The translations under genes were made by a program, and so were the position numbers. DNA of 64,000 nt from Fodinibius sediminis. Its GTDB lineage: Bacteria > Bacteroidota > Rhodothermia > Balneolales > Balneolaceae. The notes under the pieces were generated by a model, which did no database searches, was not told the origin of the DNA, and worked only from the letters and a program-made list of their open reading frames with translations. Below, piece by piece: positions 20,408-30,571 of this stretch (position 1 is its first letter; every line of letters starts with the position of its first letter). Location of the stretch: NCBI RefSeq assembly GCF_900182555.1, contig NZ_FXTH01000002.1, positions 186,001 to 250,000 of the forward strand. The letters are read 5' to 3'.

Positions 20408-21508
20408 TTAAACAATCGATTTGTACGCCTGGAAGTAGGTGTTGATGGTATACAAGCCCATTGCCAGGTTGGTCGTCCCCAAGAGACCCACGAACAGCCA
20501 CAACCACACAAAAGTCAACGTCCCCCCCGCAAATATCCATCCTGCTATATTAGCGGCAATCATCAAAGCAGTAAAAACCAGCATCGTCATGACAGAAGGC
20601 GTCAGCATATCCAAAACCTTCTTGAAATAGGTCGGTGATCTTCGGCTAAGCGCCGCCTTGCAAAATTCAGGCAAATAGCGTCGCACGAGAGAAATCTGCT
20701 TACTATTGCTCCATAAAAGACGTTTTCTGGACTCTCCATTGCTTCCTGGAAGCTGTTTCCAGACAACCGCCTCCGGTGCGAAGTCTACATCTATACCATT
20801 GAGTTGCAGCCTGAGCCCATAGTCCGTGTCTTTTTCCAGGGAATGAATCAACTCCAAATTCTCGTGGAGTGTATCAGTGGAGAAGCAAAAATTATTCCCT
20901 CTCAGGTCCATGCTGTACTTCAGCCCTTTCCGTCCCACCGGGTGAAACAAATTTCTTGTGAAAAAATTCATCTGCCGGCTGTCGTGTTCTCTCACGCTGG
21001 ATTGCGGCAGCATCAGGCTGCTGCTCTGAATGACTTTGCTTCCATGATCCAGGTAGTAATTTATGACGTCCAGGTAATTGCCTGAAATCAGACTTTCGGA
21101 TTCGATAACCAGTACAGCGTCATACGCATTGGAGCCATTCAGAATTTGCTCAATAATCCCGGACAAGGTGTATTCCTGGCTCCTATTTGTCATAGTATCC
21201 CCGTTGTATACAATGGCTCCCATTTCGCGGGCAACCCGGGCGGCCTCTTCTGAAAAACGATCGCCCAGCAGGATCACATCATACAGATTCTTTGGATAGA
21301 CCAGGCCAAAAAGACTGTACAACGACTTTGATAGAACCTGTTCATCCTGTGTTGCTGACAGCACTATGGCAAAATATCGATTCCGGTCGGCCTGTAAAGA
21401 ATTTTTCTTTCTCATCCTCAGTTCATAGACATTGCGTATCAGCTGATAACTGAGCAATAGTATGATCAAACCAGCCAAACCATATTGTATTACTGAAAGG
21501 ATAATCAT
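20408..21508 (-). CDS. membrane glycosyltransferase, cellulose-synthase-like GT2
   Basis: A 366-residue protein with an N-terminal membrane helix (residues 5-25), a GT-A domain, and two or three C-terminal membrane helices (residues 285-355). This is the layout of processive BcsA/HasA-like polysaccharide synthases. It has a VIESESLI segment where a DxD metal site is expected, a KDTDYGLRL motif matching the catalytic TED region, and SRKRLLWSNSKQ in place of QxxRW. The altered DxD and QxxRW suggest reduced or changed activity, or an unusual donor. A perfect sigma-54 consensus lies about 200 bases upstream. It lies 327 bases downstream of the CarB-like gene on the same strand. Confidence 0.75.
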   Translation of the reverse strand: MIILSVIQYGLAGLIILLLSYQLIRNVYELRMRKKNSLQADRNRYFAIVLSATQDEQVLSKSLYSLFGLVYPKNLYDVILLGDRFSEEAARVAREMGAIVYNGDTMTNRSQEYTLSGIIEQILNGSNAYDAVLVIESESLISGNYLDVINYYLDHGSKVIQSSSLMLPQSSVREHDSRQMNFFTRNLFHPVGRKGLKYSMDLRGNNFCFSTDTLHENLELIHSLEKDTDYGLRLQLNGIDVDFAPEAVVWKQLPGSNGESRKRLLWSNSKQISLVRRYLPEFCKAALSRRSPTYFKKVLDMLTPSVMTMLVFTALMIAANIAGWIFAGGTLTFVWLWLFVGLLGTTNLAMGLYTINTYFQAYKSIV

Positions 21509-21835
21509 TTAAAGCACCCTGGAAATCCTGGTATGTTATCCAATAATGAAATAGGAAAAACAGGCCCCGGCCCTGTCTTCGCTTTGTACCGGGGGCTACC
21601 TGATTCTGCTGTATCAGTGGACCTTTTGCTCACCATTCTACCTTTTTTTGAGAAAAACTCTCATTTTAACTACTCCCCTTCATCTCAATTATCTTCTTTA
21701 TTAACCTGCAACAAATGTACCATTACCATCATGCATCGCCACTGCCCTTCATAAACCAGTCGCTTATAAACAGATGACGATCATAATGTATTCGTCACGC
21801 TCTCTCTGTAATTTATGGTAGATCAACCCATCAGA
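21509..21835. other. intergenic region with sigma-54 promoter of the GT2 gene
   Basis: 327 bases between the end of the CarB-like gene and the GT2 start. Apart from the promoter motif at 21707-21722 I see nothing. The small reading frames here have no support. Confidence 0.5.
21707..21722 (-). promoter_or_regulatory. candidate sigma-54 promoter (full consensus) for the GT2 gene
   Basis: Minus strand TGGTACA-TTTG-TTGCA matches TGGYACR-N4-TTGCW at every fixed position, with GG and GC 12 bases apart. The predicted start point is near 21696, about 190 bases before the GT2 start codon. Confidence 0.7.
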
Positions 21836-23779
21836 TTATTGATGGTTCTTGCCATTTCCATCATTTCGTGGAAAAGTCAGCTCAGGGACCTGTACCACCG
21901 GAGCCTTGATTGCAGTGAAGTGCTCATTCAATTTTTGCTGATCTGAACAATCAACATCTATGAAAATGCCCGATGGATCTTCCCTTTTATAAATTTCATG
22001 GATCACTCCCCACTTCAGCGGCTCCAGATAGATACGATCGACGAAAGACATCCACAGCGAAGAAGATTCCGTATTATCCGTAACCAGTATGATGGAGTAC
22101 CCCAACCGCCGCGCCTCGTTAATTAACAGCAAGGTAGGGATGAGGGATGACACCCCCTGGGGCCCTGCGTGTTCGGAGGCCAGCACCATAATTGTTTTAT
22201 CGGGATCCTTCCCCCTCGCAGGTTGGGGAAAAGTGGCCGAAATCAAAGGCAGATCTACTTGATACTCCTCCCGCTGCTCTGAAATATCTTTTTCTGTGAT
22301 TCCAGGATATTTCAACGAGAGGATACTGGTTATCCGACTATCTGAAAAACCACAGCTTCTTAAATTTTTCCACTGTAATTTTGCCACCGTCGTAACAGAT
22401 TCCTGCTGTAACTGCCATTCAAGATCCACAATTAACTTTATATGGACCAAAAACCAAGAATCTATATGTGTGGCTCGTTGGAGGTCTTCGACTGAAACCC
22501 CAATACTCAGTGCCTGGTACAGATGAAACAATTCATCCCAGTACGGATGCTGCAGGCACTGGTTTATAGATTCCCGACCTGTGATTATCGTGTTTCCATC
22601 GCCATACCTGGCATCACCTTCGCGCCAGGCTTTCTGCAAAACCTCGCAGAAATTATGGCCTATATATATCTTTTCCTCCTTTGGCTGCTCTCCTGCAGAT
22701 GAACAAAGATCTCCTGTCCCGTTTTTATTTCCGGGAACAGACAGCAGGACCCGATCGGTGTTCTTATGCTCGAACCCCCTCTCTAAGCCCAATTCCCGAA
22801 GCCTGCTCCCCATCGCCAGCTTGGTAAGCACTTTATACAAGGGGATTCCGGCACTGAGAGAAACCAGGGCAGACCGGTTGATATTAAATGAAACGTCCGA
22901 GACCAAAATATTTCCCTTGCTGGAATCGAGAATAAATTTTACGCGACAGAAACCGGCAAAATCTTCAAGTTCTTTCACAAGCTTAAGCGCTGCCTTGTAT
23001 AAAAACCTACGGTCATCGGTATTGAGCGTCTGGACAGGACTGATTGAAAGCCGCTCGCTTGAGGCAAAAACCGGCATGACATTTTCCGAGGTCCATATGA
23101 CTCTCGCTGTGCCCCCCTGATCTTTTAGAATGCCAATACTCACCTCCTTGCCATCCACCGGGCATTCTTCTGCATATAGTTTTTCAGAACAGTCTCCTTC
23201 AAAATGTCGTTTTACCTTTTTATTAAAGTCCTTAAGCTTGGCAACGGTTGTTCGCTCATTTCTTCCGGTATGCAGTGTGACCGGAAGGCCACCCATACTT
23301 TTTAGTATTTCCGGGACCTCATCCACCGAAAGAATATCAGCACAGCCCGGCTGTTGTAAATTGGCTTTGGATATAGCTATTCGAAGTTTCTGAAATCGCT
23401 TGTATTCGTAACCGGTGGGCAGATTGGCATTGATCAGTCGAACATTATTTTGCTTCCAATAACCGCACTCCTCCAGTTTTTGAACCATTTCCCATCCTTT
23501 TGAGTCTATAAAGGGGGCAAAGACAGCATCAATGTTCTCTTTATTAAGGATGGCATCTACAGCAGCCTGCGAAAAGGAGGAGGAATAACTCGTCACATTG
23601 AGAATGGTACTTATCACCTGCTCCGTGCCAACACTTGTCATGAGTATGGGACGTTTGCCCTCTTCCATCAAGGCTTCACAACACTGGATTTCACCGCCGG
23701 CTGAATTATAATTTCCATTGATCGGTCTCTCTCCCGTTCCGACAAGTAAAATACTTTCTTTTGCATCTTTGAATTTCAT
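21836..23779 (-). CDS. degenerate, truncated carbamoyl-phosphate synthase large-chain (CarB) homologue
   Basis: 647 residues against about 1,070 in CarB. Residues 8-120 match the first pre-ATP-grasp fold (LLVGTG ... CCEALMEEGKRPILM). Residues 125-335 match the first ATP-grasp domain (SENVMPVFASSERLSISPVQ, then a degenerate RSALVSLSAGIPLYKVLTKL). Residues 375-515 match the oligomerisation domain (SIGVSVEDLQRATHIDSWFL, CGFSDSRI, EQREEYQVDLP). Residues 525-640 match the start of the second half (DRIYLEPLKWGVIHEIYKRE), and the second ATP-grasp is absent. The Gly-rich phosphate loop is lost, and the CarB metal-ligand segment E-M-N-P-R is D-V-S-F-N (residues 295-299). It is therefore probably a non-catalytic ligand sensor or scaffold. 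Confidence 0.85.
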   Translation of the reverse strand: MKFKDAKESILLVGTGERPINGNYNSAGGEIQCCEALMEEGKRPILMTSVGTEQVISTILNVTSYSSSFSQAAVDAILNKENIDAVFAPFIDSKGWEMVQKLEECGYWKQNNVRLINANLPTGYEYKRFQKLRIAISKANLQQPGCADILSVDEVPEILKSMGGLPVTLHTGRNERTTVAKLKDFNKKVKRHFEGDCSEKLYAEECPVDGKEVSIGILKDQGGTARVIWTSENVMPVFASSERLSISPVQTLNTDDRRFLYKAALKLVKELEDFAGFCRVKFILDSSKGNILVSDVSFNINRSALVSLSAGIPLYKVLTKLAMGSRLRELGLERGFEHKNTDRVLLSVPGNKNGTGDLCSSAGEQPKEEKIYIGHNFCEVLQKAWREGDARYGDGNTIITGRESINQCLQHPYWDELFHLYQALSIGVSVEDLQRATHIDSWFLVHIKLIVDLEWQLQQESVTTVAKLQWKNLRSCGFSDSRITSILSLKYPGITEKDISEQREEYQVDLPLISATFPQPARGKDPDKTIMVLASEHAGPQGVSSLIPTLLLINEARRLGYSIILVTDNTESSSLWMSFVDRIYLEPLKWGVIHEIYKREDPSGIFIDVDCSDQQKLNEHFTAIKAPVVQVPELTFPRNDGNGKNHQ

Positions 23780-23881: not shown

Positions 23882-23898
23882 AACAACTTCCGTGCCAA
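23882..23898 (-). promoter_or_regulatory. candidate sigma-54 promoter for the CarB-like gene
   Basis: Minus strand TTGGCACG-GAAG-TTGTT has a perfect -24 element and TTGT at -12, with correct spacing. It lies about 105 bases before the start codon. Confidence 0.55.
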
Positions 23899-24397: not shown

Positions 24398-24414
24398 TTG
24401 GCATATTTGTTGTG
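24398..24414 (+). promoter_or_regulatory. candidate sigma-54 promoter for the degenerate AAA+ gene
   Basis: TTGGCATATTTGTTGTG fits TGGYAY-N5-TTGY with correct spacing and is nearly identical to the fcl promoter motif at 16247-16266, including the GTGAC that follows. It lies about 200 bases before the start codon. Confidence 0.6.
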
Positions 24415-24617: not shown

Positions 24618-25418
24618 ATGCTAACGACAAAACCCTTTTTCAAAAAAAACCTCCTGCATGATATAGAAAAATCATCGAAGAGTATCCTGATGCAGGATAT
24701 TTTCTACAAAATTCTGCGATTGGCCAAATTAGATTCAAATGTCATATTGGTTGGTGAAATAGGCTCCGGAAAAAAAAGGCTTGCCAAAATAATACATGAA
24801 AACAGTCATCGGGCTGAAGGACCTTTTCATACATTTTACTGTCTGAATATCGATGAGGAGGAATATAAAAATGCTTTCTGGGGACGGTTGCAATTTGAGG
24901 ACAACCACCTCTCGCTTAAATACGACCTCCTCGAAAAAACCATAGATGGTACGCTTTATCTGGATCAGTTCTCAGAGCTTTCCCCTGCTTTTATGCTCGA
25001 TGTTATTATCTCATACCACAAGGGATGCAAACAGTTATTTCGCCACCGGGATGATGACAAGGGCAAACCTCGCCTAATCCTCTCCCTGAACCAGGAATTT
25101 TATCACGAAATACTTCATCAGGATGTTTGGGAAAAACTGCTGGATGAATTAAATCCTGTCGTTATTATGCTCCCGCCGCTTCGAGAACACAAAGAGGACA
25201 TCCCCCTTATCATCGACTATTTCCTTGATGAGATCAGAACCAACTACATCGACTATAAGAATCTGAGCATGTCGGCCCATGCACTGCTGGCATGTTTTAA
25301 CTACGACTGGCCGGGCAACCTCCTGCAGCTTAAAAATGCAATTCTCCAGGGAGCCATTCTTTCCCGCGGAAATACGATTGAGCTAAGGCATCTTCCTTTC
25401 TCACTGAGTCTGGACTAA
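24618..25418 (+). CDS. degenerate NtrC-family AAA+ protein, probably unable to activate sigma-54
   Basis: A 266-residue protein aligned throughout with the central domain of sigma-54 activators. It has a Walker-A-like GEIGSGKKRLAK (46-57), a Walker-B-like GTLYLDQFSEL (111-121, where the Glu of LDE is Gln), PPLREHKEDIPLI (186-198) and the sensor-2 segment NYDWPGNLLQLKN (228-240). The sigma-54-contacting GAFTGA loop is missing. The FRxDLxxRL arginine fingers are replaced (HQDVWEKLLDEL). There is no receiver domain and no C-terminal HTH. It could be an antagonist forming mixed rings with the intact activator at 29552, which is inference. A sigma-54 motif precedes it. Confidence 0.8.
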   Translation: MLTTKPFFKKNLLHDIEKSSKSILMQDIFYKILRLAKLDSNVILVGEIGSGKKRLAKIIHENSHRAEGPFHTFYCLNIDEEEYKNAFWGRLQFEDNHLSLKYDLLEKTIDGTLYLDQFSELSPAFMLDVIISYHKGCKQLFRHRDDDKGKPRLILSLNQEFYHEILHQDVWEKLLDELNPVVIMLPPLREHKEDIPLIIDYFLDEIRTNYIDYKNLSMSAHALLACFNYDWPGNLLQLKNAILQGAILSRGNTIELRHLPFSLSLD

Positions 25419-25586: not shown

Positions 25587-26225
25587 TCAGTCGATGAGAT
25601 TTTGTTCAAGAGCATACCGGGTAAATTCTACATTGGATTTTAGTCCCATTTTATCTTTGATCCGGGATCGGTAGGTATGGACCGTCTGCACACTGAGCGA
25701 GAGTTCTTCAGCTATCTCGTTCACCTCCTTACCAGATGCAATCATGCACATAATCTGATATTCACGGTCGGAGAGCGTCTCATGGAGGGGCTTGTCTCCA
25801 CTCAGGTCAACATGACTGGCCAGCTGTTCAGCTACATCCTGACTTATGTATTTCTTTTGCTGAATGACAATTCTCTGGATGGCATTAATGAGCTGCTCCG
25901 AGATGCTCCTCTTATTTAAATAGCCGTGGGCACCCGCTTTAAGGGCACGAACAGCAAAGCGGTCTTCCGGATGGATACTCAAAATGAGGACCGGGAGGTC
26001 GGGATACGACTCCTTCACCTCTTTCAGTACATCCAGTCCGCTTTTACCGGGCATGGCGATATCCAGAATCAACAGGTCGGGTTCTGTTTCCTTCAGCTTT
26101 TCCATAAGTTCGCTTCCGTCGGAGGCTTCCCCAATGACCTTGATATCGGTAGCATTCTGCTGCACTACTTTCTTCAGCCCTTCCCTTACCAGCGGATGGT
26201 CATCGGCTATAAATATTGTAATCAT
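25587..26225 (-). CDS. NarL/FixJ-type response regulator
   Basis: A 212-residue regulator. The receiver domain (residues 1-120) has the acidic pair DD (8-9), phosphoacceptor D55 (LILDIAMPG), Ser at the Thr switch (LILSIH) and Lys in GYLNK. The C-terminal LuxR-type HTH (residues 148-212) reads LSDREYQIMCMIASG and SVQTVHTYRSRIKDKMGL. It should bind DNA as a dimer once phosphorylated by the kinase whose gene ends 22 bases upstream. No dedicated target site could be identified. It converges with the degenerate AAA+ gene across 168 bases containing a weak hairpin (25455-25475). Confidence 0.93.
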   Translation of the reverse strand: MITIFIADDHPLVREGLKKVVQQNATDIKVIGEASDGSELMEKLKETEPDLLILDIAMPGKSGLDVLKEVKESYPDLPVLILSIHPEDRFAVRALKAGAHGYLNKRSISEQLINAIQRIVIQQKKYISQDVAEQLASHVDLSGDKPLHETLSDREYQIMCMIASGKEVNEIAEELSLSVQTVHTYRSRIKDKMGLKSNVEFTRYALEQNLID

Positions 26226-26247
26226 GATTTCCTCTATAATTCATTAG

Positions 26248-28065
26248 TTATTCTTTTTCCATTGGAATCCGAACCGTCACACGTGTTCCTTCATTTTCTT
26301 TGCCTTCTATGTAGACATCGCCTCCCAGGAACCGCGCTCTTTCACGCATGCCTATGATTCCATAGGCTGAACGGGCCTCCATTTGGTCCCTGTTGATACC
26401 CACCCCGTCGTCATCAACCATTAAAAGCAAATTGTCCTGAATTTTCTGCAGTTCAATCTTGACTGATGTGGCATCTGCATGTCGTATAACGTTGTGCATG
26501 GCTTCCTGAAATATTCGGTACAGCGTTGTGGCTATGTCTTCTCTCAGGAAATCAGTCTTATTGATATTTGTCTTGAACTGAATATCCAATCCCGTCCTTT
26601 TTGCAAATTCCCGTCCCTGCCATTGCAGGGCCTCAATAAGTCCCAGGTCGTCCAATACCTCCGGCCTCAATTCCGTGGTAATGCGCTGCACAGATTTTAT
26701 AATCGTATCTATTCGTTCAGATATTTTTTCTGATTGCTCTTCATAATAATCGGTAAGGTCTTCCGGCAATTTTTTTGTCACTTTCCCGCTCATCATGGAG
26801 ACATCCATTTTCAGTACGGTCAGCATCTGTCCCAATTCGTCATGGATAGTCCTTGCAATTCTTATACGCTCTTCCTCCCGCGTTCGTTCAGCACGTTCGG
26901 ACAACTTGCGGAGCTGTTCACTGTATTGGCGTAGTCTTACTTCTTTCTCCTTCTGTTCCGTTATATCCTGCACAGTTCCTATCATTTTAGTTATCTTTTC
27001 ATTTTCATCGGTCAGCACCTGTCCCCTGCCCAGTAACGTCCGCACTTCATTATCAGAGCGAACGATTCTGTGTTCAATAGAAAAAGTACTCTTATTCCTC
27101 AGGGCCGCATCCAAAACAGCTTTTACACGCCTGCGATCACTGGGATAGATATGATTGACAAATATATCATAGGAGCATTTATCTTTTCCCGGTACCATTC
27201 CGTAAATCCTGTACATTTCATCCGACCATTCCATATGCGATCGATTTTCTTCATGCAAACTCCACTCCCAACTTCCAACCTTGGCTATCTGCTGGGCTTC
27301 GGTCAGTTTGGCACGGTGTTCTTTTAAATTCTGCATCCGTTTCCTGCGGTTTGTGATATCCCGCGAATTAATGACAATAATCGATCCTTCACGGCTGCTT
27401 GGGATATTCTTGGCAATACTTTCGAGATACCTCCATTCCCCATTGTTATGGCGAAAACGGAAAACAACCGTCCGGGCCATCTCACCGTTGCTTCTGATAT
27501 CATAGAAAACATGTTTTACTTTGTTGACATCCTCATGATGGATAAACTGGAACGCATTCTTCCCAATAAGCTTCTGGTGCGGATATCCAAGGATATGTTC
27601 CGTGGAGGGACTGGCAAACTGTATGACTCCCTTGTAATCAACCACTGTTATAATATCCTGCGCATTCTCAATAAGGGACTGAAAATAGGCCTTGCTGTCG
27701 GATAGTTCTCTTTGAATCTCTTTCCGACTTTCAATCTCCTTCTCAAGCTGTTCATTTTTTTGATTGAGCTCGTCGACCAATGCCCGATAACTTTGAAGCT
27801 TCACTTCAAAGGGAGCCATCCACTCCTTGCAATAATCTGCAGATTTCTCAAATATCTCTTCAGAAGGAGAGATATGCTCACTTTCAAAAATTTGTGCTAA
27901 TACTTCGTGGTGCAGTCCAATCATTGTCAACTCGGTGATTCCTTCTTCCAATATTTTTCGGCTTTCTCCATAAGCCTCATACAAGTACTTCTCATCTCCT
28001 TCGATTACATAACCGTGGAACCCCTTGAAATAAACGGACTTTACTGTTTCCTTTTCTGCACTCAT
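26248..28065 (-). CDS. hybrid sensor: RsbU-type N-domain, two PAS domains, NarX-type histidine kinase
   Basis: About 605 residues from ATG 28065, which has GGGGGAG just upstream. An ATG at 28110 has no such site. Residues 8-95 resemble the RsbT-binding N-domain of RsbU: LYEAYGESRKILEEGITELT aligns with B. subtilis LYQAQKFSRKTIEHQIPPEE, and the later LHHEVL with IHRKVL. A coiled coil (95-125) and two PAS domains (about 125-240 and 255-375) follow. A HisKA_3 dimerisation region carries H408 (IARTIHDELGQ), with a HATPase domain behind (FQEAMHNVIRHADA, DDDGVGI). No membrane segment is present, so it is cytosolic. The RsbT-like gene lies 160 bases upstream and the response regulator 22 bases downstream. 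Confidence 0.9.
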   Translation of the reverse strand: MSAEKETVKSVYFKGFHGYVIEGDEKYLYEAYGESRKILEEGITELTMIGLHHEVLAQIFESEHISPSEEIFEKSADYCKEWMAPFEVKLQSYRALVDELNQKNEQLEKEIESRKEIQRELSDSKAYFQSLIENAQDIITVVDYKGVIQFASPSTEHILGYPHQKLIGKNAFQFIHHEDVNKVKHVFYDIRSNGEMARTVVFRFRHNNGEWRYLESIAKNIPSSREGSIIVINSRDITNRRKRMQNLKEHRAKLTEAQQIAKVGSWEWSLHEENRSHMEWSDEMYRIYGMVPGKDKCSYDIFVNHIYPSDRRRVKAVLDAALRNKSTFSIEHRIVRSDNEVRTLLGRGQVLTDENEKITKMIGTVQDITEQKEKEVRLRQYSEQLRKLSERAERTREEERIRIARTIHDELGQMLTVLKMDVSMMSGKVTKKLPEDLTDYYEEQSEKISERIDTIIKSVQRITTELRPEVLDDLGLIEALQWQGREFAKRTGLDIQFKTNINKTDFLREDIATTLYRIFQEAMHNVIRHADATSVKIELQKIQDNLLLMVDDDGVGINRDQMEARSAYGIIGMRERARFLGGDVYIEGKENEGTRVTVRIPMEKE

Positions 28066-28225
28066 ATCTCCCCCGCTCATCTCAAGAGCTGCAATCCTGA
28101 ATGTAGCCATTCAGATATGATAAGCGTGCACCATTGCACAGCCTGCTGTTTGGAAATACTCATGTTACCACCCGATCTATACACATGTCAATACTCCTTG
28201 CGATATTCTGCATCGTATTTTCAAC

Positions 28226-28654
28226 TTAATCCTTGTCCAGGTATTTGCACATCCGTATGGTCGTTCCCTCATCACGGGCCGTTCGGATCTCAAACATGTC
28301 CATGAAGCGCTTGGCTCCCGGAAGACCAATCCCCAGACCACCCCGGCTGGAGAATCCTTCTTCAAGAGCCTTCTGTACATCCTTGATGCCGGGTCCCTGG
28401 TCTTTGACCGTAATAAAAAGGCACGGTTTTTTTGAGCCCACGACTTTGATGGTAACTGTGCCTTTGCCAGCATGGTCAATCACATTTCTGCATATTTCAT
28501 AAAGTGCGGTAGAAATCATTGTACAATTATCCGTACTGAATTCCATCTGAACAGCCAGTGAACGACAATATTCTCTAATCTTTATCAAGTCCTCATCAGA
28601 ATTTAACGGCAGGGTTTTACCCGCTGACTTGTTCTTTTTCCTCTCTATGTTCAT
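28226..28654 (-). CDS. RsbT-like switch kinase/ATPase
   Basis: About 142 residues of the GHKL anti-sigma/RsbT family. The segments STALYEICRNVIDHAGKG, VKDQGPGIKDVQKALEEGFS and GGLGIGLPGAKRFMDMFEI align closely with B. subtilis RsbT, notably the shared AGKG, DQGPGI, GFS and GLPG(A/V)KR. In stressosomes RsbT phosphorylates RsbS/RsbR, is released, and binds RsbU's N-domain. No STAS partner gene is in the window, but the next gene carries an RsbU-like N-domain. I start at 28654 (GGGGA upstream). The ATG at 28672 lacks a site. A weak sigma-54-like motif lies about 285 bases upstream. Confidence 0.88.
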   Translation of the reverse strand: MNIERKKNKSAGKTLPLNSDEDLIKIREYCRSLAVQMEFSTDNCTMISTALYEICRNVIDHAGKGTVTIKVVGSKKPCLFITVKDQGPGIKDVQKALEEGFSSRGGLGIGLPGAKRFMDMFEIRTARDEGTTIRMCKYLDKD

Positions 28655-28937
28655 TCTTGTTCCCCGCATCACGTAATTTAAAACGGTTTAGCCAATACCC
28701 CTCTCATTCACTTATGAGCAGGCCGCATTAAGATTTTTTACTTATTATTCGAAGCTGTACTCAATCTGGTCCAAGCATCTTACCGTACACTATCATCCAT
28801 ATCCCAGCAGTGCCGTTCACTATTTTCCTGCAAAGATCCACGGACCGGACAATATCAAATAGAATCTTCCATGACACCATGCGATTAATAAATGTAATGG
28901 TGTACTAAATATTAATGTCCGTCATACTAATCTTTAT

Positions 28938-29551: not shown

Positions 29552-30571
29552 TTATTTTTTTGAATATCTTTCCAGCTTGTTATGTAGCGTTTTTCGACTA
29601 AATCCCAATATTTTTGAAGCTTCTGTTTTATTATTATCCACGGAACTCAGGGTATGGTTGATAACCTTTCGTTCAACTTCTTCCAGGCTTATCCCGATCG
29701 GAATTTGAATATACTTATCAAATTCACCGTCCATGTTGACGGGGTATATTTTATCATCAGCACGAATGTGTGAAGGTATGGCATCTACCTGTACCTCTTC
29801 TCCCTGGCATAAAACCACACACCGTTCAACGATATTTTTCAGTTCTCTTACATTTCCCGGCCAATCATAGGCTTTGAAGAGTCCCATGCATTCCTCGGAG
29901 AATTCGATGGGTTCCATTCCATAAACCTCTGCAAAATGATTCTTGAAATAGGTTATTAGCAATGGAATATCCTCCCTGCGGTTACGAAGAGGAGGTACAT
30001 ACAGTTCTATTACATTAAGCCTGTAAAAAAGATCTTCGCGAAAATTCCCGGAACTAACCTGGTCAATTAATACTTTATTCGTTGCTGAAATTATGCTCAC
30101 ATCAACATCAATTTCCTTTTTGCCTCCTACTCTTCGAAATGCACACATTTCTACAGCCCGCAGCAGCTTAACCTGCGTATCTTTTGGCATTTCCCCGATT
30201 TCATCGAGGAACAAAGTACTCTTGTCAGCCAATTCAAAACAGCCCTCTTTTCTTTCACTGGCTCCTGTAAATGCACCTTTTTCATGCCCAAACAGTTCAC
30301 TTTCCACCAGATCAGAGGGGATCGCACCGCAGTTTACGGCAATCATTTCTTTATCGCTTCTCGAACTGTAGTAGTGCACCAACCGGGCCAGCACCTCTTT
30401 TCCTGTTCCATTCTCACCGGTAATCAGCAGAGTGGCTTTGGTCCTGGCTACCAACTTTATTTTCGCCAGCAAATCCTTCATGGCCTGGTTTTGAGTAATA
30501 AAAACCGGTTTTCCTTTTTCTTTCGACTCTCCCTGTTTGGTACTGGTATTACCGCTATTATCGTTACTCAT
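29552..30571 (-). CDS. sigma-54-dependent transcriptional activator without receiver domain
   Basis: A 339-residue bacterial enhancer-binding protein. Only about 22 polar residues precede the AAA+ domain. It has Walker A GENGTGKE (52-59), an intact GAFTGA loop (99-104), Walker B TLFLDEIGE (119-127) and arginine fingers in FREDLFYRL (177-185). PPLRNRREDIPLL and YDWPGNVRELKN are also intact. A Fis-type HTH closes the protein (TEASKILGFSRKTLHNKLERY, about 316-336). With no receiver it resembles PspF-like activators controlled by a partner protein. The degenerate paralogue at 24618 is a candidate. It probably activates the -24/-12 promoters of the surrounding locus. Confidence 0.95.
   Translation of the reverse strand: MSNDNSGNTSTKQGESKEKGKPVFITQNQAMKDLLAKIKLVARTKATLLITGENGTGKEVLARLVHYYSSRSDKEMIAVNCGAIPSDLVESELFGHEKGAFTGASERKEGCFELADKSTLFLDEIGEMPKDTQVKLLRAVEMCAFRRVGGKKEIDVDVSIISATNKVLIDQVSSGNFREDLFYRLNVIELYVPPLRNRREDIPLLITYFKNHFAEVYGMEPIEFSEECMGLFKAYDWPGNVRELKNIVERCVVLCQGEEVQVDAIPSHIRADDKIYPVNMDGEFDKYIQIPIGISLEEVERKVINHTLSSVDNNKTEASKILGFSRKTLHNKLERYSKK

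Follow-up and report, generated by a model that had tools for sequence, protein, structure and literature searches.

The locus and its genes

The stretch of DNA analyzed here (the window, 64,000 nucleotides) is from Fodinibius sediminis. It contains a gene for a homolog of the large chain of carbamoyl-phosphate synthase (CPS), CarB, which is referred to below as pseudo-CarB. The relevant features are:

20408..21508, minus strand: GT2 glycosyltransferase, EpsU-like but under the NCBIfam cut-off
21708..21722, minus strand: -24/-12-like site TGGTACATTTGTTGC, 214 bp upstream of the GT2 start
21836..23779, minus strand: CarB-like gene for pseudo-CarB (647 aa, ATG start)
21950..22117, minus strand: second preATP-grasp domain (Pfam D1 match, residues 555-610)
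22322..22555, minus strand: oligomerization domain D3 (residues 409-486), the best-retained part
22793..23188, minus strand: second part of ATP-grasp A (Pfam D2 match, residues 198-329); K214/E215 kept, H243, Q285, E299, N301 and R303 lost
23180..23398, minus strand: first part of the degenerate ATP-grasp A (residues 128-200, from which the base positions were converted); R129, R169 and the Gly-rich loop lost
23882..23898, minus strand: -24/-12 site TTGGCACGGAAGTTGTT of the CarB-like gene, in a 21-bp block identical in Fodinibius salsisoli
24398..24413, plus strand: -24/-12-like site TTGGCATATTTGTTGT, 220 bp upstream of the ATG of the AAA gene
24618..25418, plus strand: AAA protein of the sigma-54 activator type (266 aa) without GAFTGA and without HTH, Walker B DE changed to DQ
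29552..30571, minus strand: intact sigma-54 activator (GAFTGA, Walker B DE, Fis-type HTH)

The open reading frame of the CarB-like gene has exactly the ends listed, and a Shine-Dalgarno-like GGGGGAG is found directly 5' of its start codon. The GT2 gene is probably its own transcription unit. The divergent neighbor on the other side, the conserved AAA gene, is found beside GT2 in 8 of 12 Fodinibius genomes, and the intact activator is encoded close to it. The Gln in its Walker B motif is also present in F. salsisoli (G007) and in the congeners G009, G010 and G011. The equivalent exchange in PspF (E108Q) results in hydrolysis-defective, constitutive hexamers (PMC4132715). The intact activator may have an inactive partner in the AAA protein. 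In the window, these two genes are separated by genes for a response regulator, a PAS histidine kinase with an RsbU_N-like N-terminus and an RsbW-like HATPase (25587-28672, minus strand). They are adjacent in F. salsisoli, and only the response regulator is present in G011.

The assignment to a polysaccharide locus, already made in the first-pass annotation, is backed by G009, in which the gap between AAA and GT2 holds genes for polysaccharide export (Poly_export/SLBB), Wzz and a Wzc-like ATPase. There (L061:4582-8721), the export genes are joined by one for an outer-membrane-like protein without a Pfam match. Two further observations were made by eye. At L098:6421-10770, a 441-aa leucine-rich-repeat-like protein is encoded, the repeat part of which recurs, apparently identical, at the C-terminus of the adjacent 943-aa protein; this is apparently a recent tandem duplication or an assembly effect. 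At L098:11461-14354, an AsnB-type amidotransferase adjoins a RimK-like ATP-grasp protein within the polysaccharide gene cluster.

Domain structure of pseudo-CarB

The domain order is preATP-grasp A, degenerate ATP-grasp A, oligomerization domain D3, preATP-grasp C and a short tail. A profile search, which had been proposed as a check, places three Pfam domains above the cut-off: CPSase_L_D3 (2.2e-17; PF02787, 63-67 bits with a cut-off of 26.6), CPSase_L_D2 (4.3e-14, covering only the C-terminal 131 of 211 profile positions) and CPSase_L_D1 (1.1e-11, matching the second preATP-grasp domain). For D3, pseudo-CarB scores 67 bits and the CarB of the host 82 bits. The NCBIfam CarB equivalog NF003671 matches residues 5-628 (4.5e-53), but equivalog level is not reached (180/599 bits and 175.6/1027 bits). 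The alignment to E. coli CarB covers residues 7 to 663 and ends ahead of the second ATP-grasp. An AF2 model (46 sequences in the alignment; pLDDT 76, pTM 0.80) compares to E. coli CarB (1c30_A) with a TM score of 0.79 by query length and a VIA Z of 29. The predicted structure has the overall fold of CarB; since the AF2 alignment included CarB sequences, this agreement was to be expected and is no independent evidence. Pfam, NCBIfam, alignment and model agree with the CarB homology and the domain order, ending ahead of the second ATP-grasp, that had been read from the sequence.

Pseudo-CarB thus resembles CarB (E. coli 1BXR/1JDB, Pfam PF25596-PF02786-PF02787) in fold and domain order over E. 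coli residues of about 7-663. It differs in having a single degenerate ATP-grasp, devoid of catalytic and metal residues, where CarB has two, and in lacking an adjoining carA. It also stays under the equivalog cut-off and is only 26-28% identical to the host's own CarB. The latter is complete (945 aa) and is encoded on another contig, directly behind the only carA of the genome; one carA and one intact carB are thus found together. In some archaea and in Aquifex, CarB is split into active, complementary fragments. Pseudo-CarB is likewise a CarB fragment encoded by a separate gene, but the lost catalytic residues and the complete CarB elsewhere in the genome rule out a split but active CarB.

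Ortholog, distribution and origin

A search of the genome and 58 relatives returned one ortholog, from F. salsisoli, which is full length, has an open frame and shares 49% sequence identity. Both genomes have the gene order dnaB, GT2, CarB-like gene, AAA protein, sigma-54 activator, rnc and fabF. F. salsisoli is the single carrier among the 11 congeners examined, and the gene is absent from 10 of the 12 genus genomes and thus dispensable. No third member was found in 395 genomes of the phylum or in one scan of GTDB species, and viral contigs contained no further member either. Matches in a plasmid collection were all below 60% identity, and those listed (23-25%) are consistent with ordinary carB. 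One of the genomes without the gene, G011, groups with the genome of the window in the CarB tree (96/83); if this grouping is right, the gene has likely been lost in G011. Neither G011 nor other congeners have remnants of the gene in the corresponding gap.

The first-pass annotation had proposed a phylogeny with the true carB. The pair of orthologs is monophyletic (100/100) but on very long branches, and a common group with the CarBs of Balneolales could be neither demonstrated nor dismissed (AU p = 0.313). Signature residues lean weakly towards a Balneolales origin (10 shared with Balneolales, 4 with the outgroup), and profile scores drop with taxonomic distance from the genus. A copy of a Balneolales carB probably gave rise to pseudo-CarB, in which the second ATP-grasp would then have disappeared, along with the catalytic residues of the first one. 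The two orthologs differ in net charge and pI. At otherwise conserved columns, they have 87 residues in common that are missing from true CarBs, and they share the new motifs FAPFID..GW, EPLKW and IKAPVV..P.

Lost catalytic residues and purifying selection

Both orthologs were compared to 49 CarBs, using E. coli numbering. Invariant in the 49 CarBs but lost or replaced in both orthologs are R129 (R129F), R169 (R169H), the Gly-rich loop (171-174 deleted), H243 (H243A/S), Q285 (Q285K), E299 (Asp in one copy, Ser in its ortholog), N301 (N301S) and R303 (R303N/H). The loss of the Gly-rich loop and of the E-x-N-x-R residues, noted before for the one gene, thus extends to its ortholog. K214 and E215 are kept, while the GGQT motifs are lost. 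Residues of the tunnel region are altered too (C232W/F, A251S and A314S, at tunnel-lining positions, plus Q22, A23 and E25). Between the two orthologs, conservation is among the lowest in the N-terminal part of the ATP-grasp.

The orthologs differ at codon positions 1, 2 and 3 with frequencies of 0.37, 0.27 and 0.57. The NG86 dN/dS ratio is about 0.13, of which only the direction is safe because dS is saturated. Substitutions are thus concentrated at third codon positions, which argues against decay. A dN/dS near 1 or frameshifts in relatives had been named as signs of decay; the ratio is far lower, and the ortholog is free of frameshifts. Identity between the true CarBs of both species is 95%, compared to 49% for the pseudo-CarB pair, so that the pseudo copy evolves far faster, though under constraint. 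The open ortholog, the codon-position bias and a conserved promoter block (see below) rule out a simple pseudogene, as had been held from the open frame. A decaying carB duplicate that is open by chance would fit the patchy distribution and the long branches, but it can hardly account for a frame that has stayed open over its whole length in two lineages (49% identity), for the low dN/dS and strong codon-position bias or for the promoter block.

By its sequence, pseudo-CarB is the homolog of an active enzyme that has lost catalytic residues and is under purifying selection, which is the definition of a pseudoenzyme. It is very probably dead and kept by selection, and the protein itself is presumably inactive in catalysis. 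In the general class of pseudoenzymes that regulate active relatives, an inactive-looking paralog is under selection beside an active enzyme, as is the case here. Among open-access papers, nothing relevant was found on a pseudoenzyme of the CPS large chain or of the ATP-grasp type, nor was a sequence-dead CPS large chain kept by selection, for which there are two species so far.

Selective retention of the oligomerization domain

D3 keeps 13 of its 19 CarB-invariant residues, compared to 62 of 290 elsewhere (Fisher p = 3e-5), and the excess holds separately for hydrophobic residues (p = 0.002) and other residues (p = 0.007), although related sequences and neighboring columns are not independent in these statistics. 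Among true CarBs across the phylum, D3 is the least conserved domain (0.37 identity, compared to 0.57-0.72 for the other domains). Between the pseudo copies and the host CarB, the identity is 0.33-0.35 for D3 and 0.19-0.29 for the other domains. Fold constraint alone could contribute to this retention, and it could reflect only fold stability or self-association. A role as scaffold, which the first-pass annotation had offered as an alternative, is supported by the selective retention of D3.

Predicted sigma-54 promoters

About 120 bp upstream of the CarB-like gene, the sequence TTGGCAC-N5-TTGT is found, with a -12 element TTGT instead of TTGC. The upstream regions of the two orthologs are unrelated except for the 21-bp identical block (the next longest has 9 bp). 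In 100 resampled pairs, the longest shared block had at most 14 bp. The -24/-12 motif that had been attributed to the gene is within this block. The strict -24/-12 pattern occurs seven times in the genome, compared to zero for the reversed control, and three of these sites are clustered within the polysaccharide region and next to it (C2:173-210 kb). The AAA gene and GT2 have -24/-12-like sites in several congeners too. The genome has one rpoN, and the intact activator encoded nearby is a candidate activator of the -24/-12 promoters. Thus, the CarB-like gene is probably under sigma-54 control, and the predicted promoters in general would be used by sigma-54. Sigma-54-regulated polysaccharide loci likewise have -24/-12-like sites, a nearby activator and a glycosyltransferase, with export and chain-length genes as in G009. 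The CarB-like gene is an extra part, found in two species only.

Possible functions

In E. coli, the small subunit CarA touches the carboxyphosphate and oligomerization domains of CarB, and tetramers form across the latter (PMC6245113). Pseudo-CarB keeps both domains plus half of the next one, and the rest has been dropped. This pattern suggests an action by protein contact, which we consider fairly likely, and makes CarA/CarB the most likely partner, an assignment that in itself is somewhat less likely than not. The best overall explanation is a CarB pseudoenzyme that acts by contact with CarA/CarB and has an effect on carbamoyl phosphate; we regard its chances as nearly balanced, with a slight tilt towards doubt.

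It is tempting to speculate how this would operate. Selection keeps pseudo-CarB in at least two Fodinibius species, in a polysaccharide locus that has -24/-12 promoters. The neighboring activator would drive sigma-54 RNA polymerase to switch it on together with the polysaccharide genes. With the two putative CarA-touching parts (carboxyphosphate domain and D3) and the tetramer-forming face of D3, the protein would join CarAB assemblies or hold CarA, and carbamoyl-phosphate synthesis would be lowered or redirected while nucleotide sugars are spent, with an effect on both carbamoyl phosphate and polysaccharide. In this specific form, in which a sigma-54-induced dead CarB uses its carboxyphosphate and D3 domains to enter or titrate the CarA-CarB complex and thereby controls how much carbamoyl phosphate is supplied while polysaccharide is made, the proposal is rather unlikely to hold in full. 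A precedent for a link between CPS and polysaccharide exists in E. coli, where loss of carB raised cellulose in the presence of uracil (PMC3281075). It counts against the proposal that oligomerization itself had no effect on the regulation of CPS activity in E. coli (PMC6245113), as do the dispensability of the gene and the difference in charge and pI between the orthologs.

Pseudo-CarB might instead serve the polysaccharide machinery as a scaffold or regulator, without any relation to CPS; its self-associating (D3) CarB fold would then bind the glycosyltransferase or another polysaccharide protein. The gene is located between GT2 and the AAA gene in both genomes, all three genes have -24/-12-like sites in the genome of the window, and the 87 pair-specific residues are as expected of a new interface. 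However, six congeners have GT2 and AAA but no CarB-like gene, so that neither needs it, and nothing points to any particular partner; this reading is doubtful. A ligand sensor would bind a metabolite (nucleotide or nucleotide sugar) in its degenerate pocket or its Rossmann-like preATP-grasp domains and report it to polysaccharide regulators. This reading would fit the Rossmann-like domains, which are predicted fairly well in the model, and the new motifs of the pair. It is improbable given the loss of the ATP-binding residues, GGQT motifs and Gly-rich loop, and given that the N-terminal part of the ATP-grasp is so poorly conserved between the orthologs. The ligands originally suggested were UMP, ornithine and IMP, and this proposal is rejected as stated. 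In E. coli CPS, all three bind the C-terminal MGS domain (residues about 933-1073) (PMC6245113). No match to this domain was found in pseudo-CarB or in the 945-aa host CarB, so that sensing through the known site is unlikely. A new enzymatic activity on the ATP-grasp fold could make use of the retained K214 and E215 and of the Asp at the position of E299 in one copy. It is highly improbable, since the ortholog has Ser in place of this Asp and both copies lack N301, Q285 and the Gly-rich loop, so that the usual metal ligands are absent.

Carbamoyl-phosphate synthase is a textbook allosteric enzyme. If the contact with CarA/CarB is real, this lineage, in which CarB has no allosteric domain, would have a protein regulator in pseudo-CarB. 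It would also provide a natural test of the role of the oligomerization domain, freed from catalysis. An inactive CarB that is switched on together with surface-sugar genes would represent a new coupling of nucleotide and arginine precursor supply to polysaccharide output.
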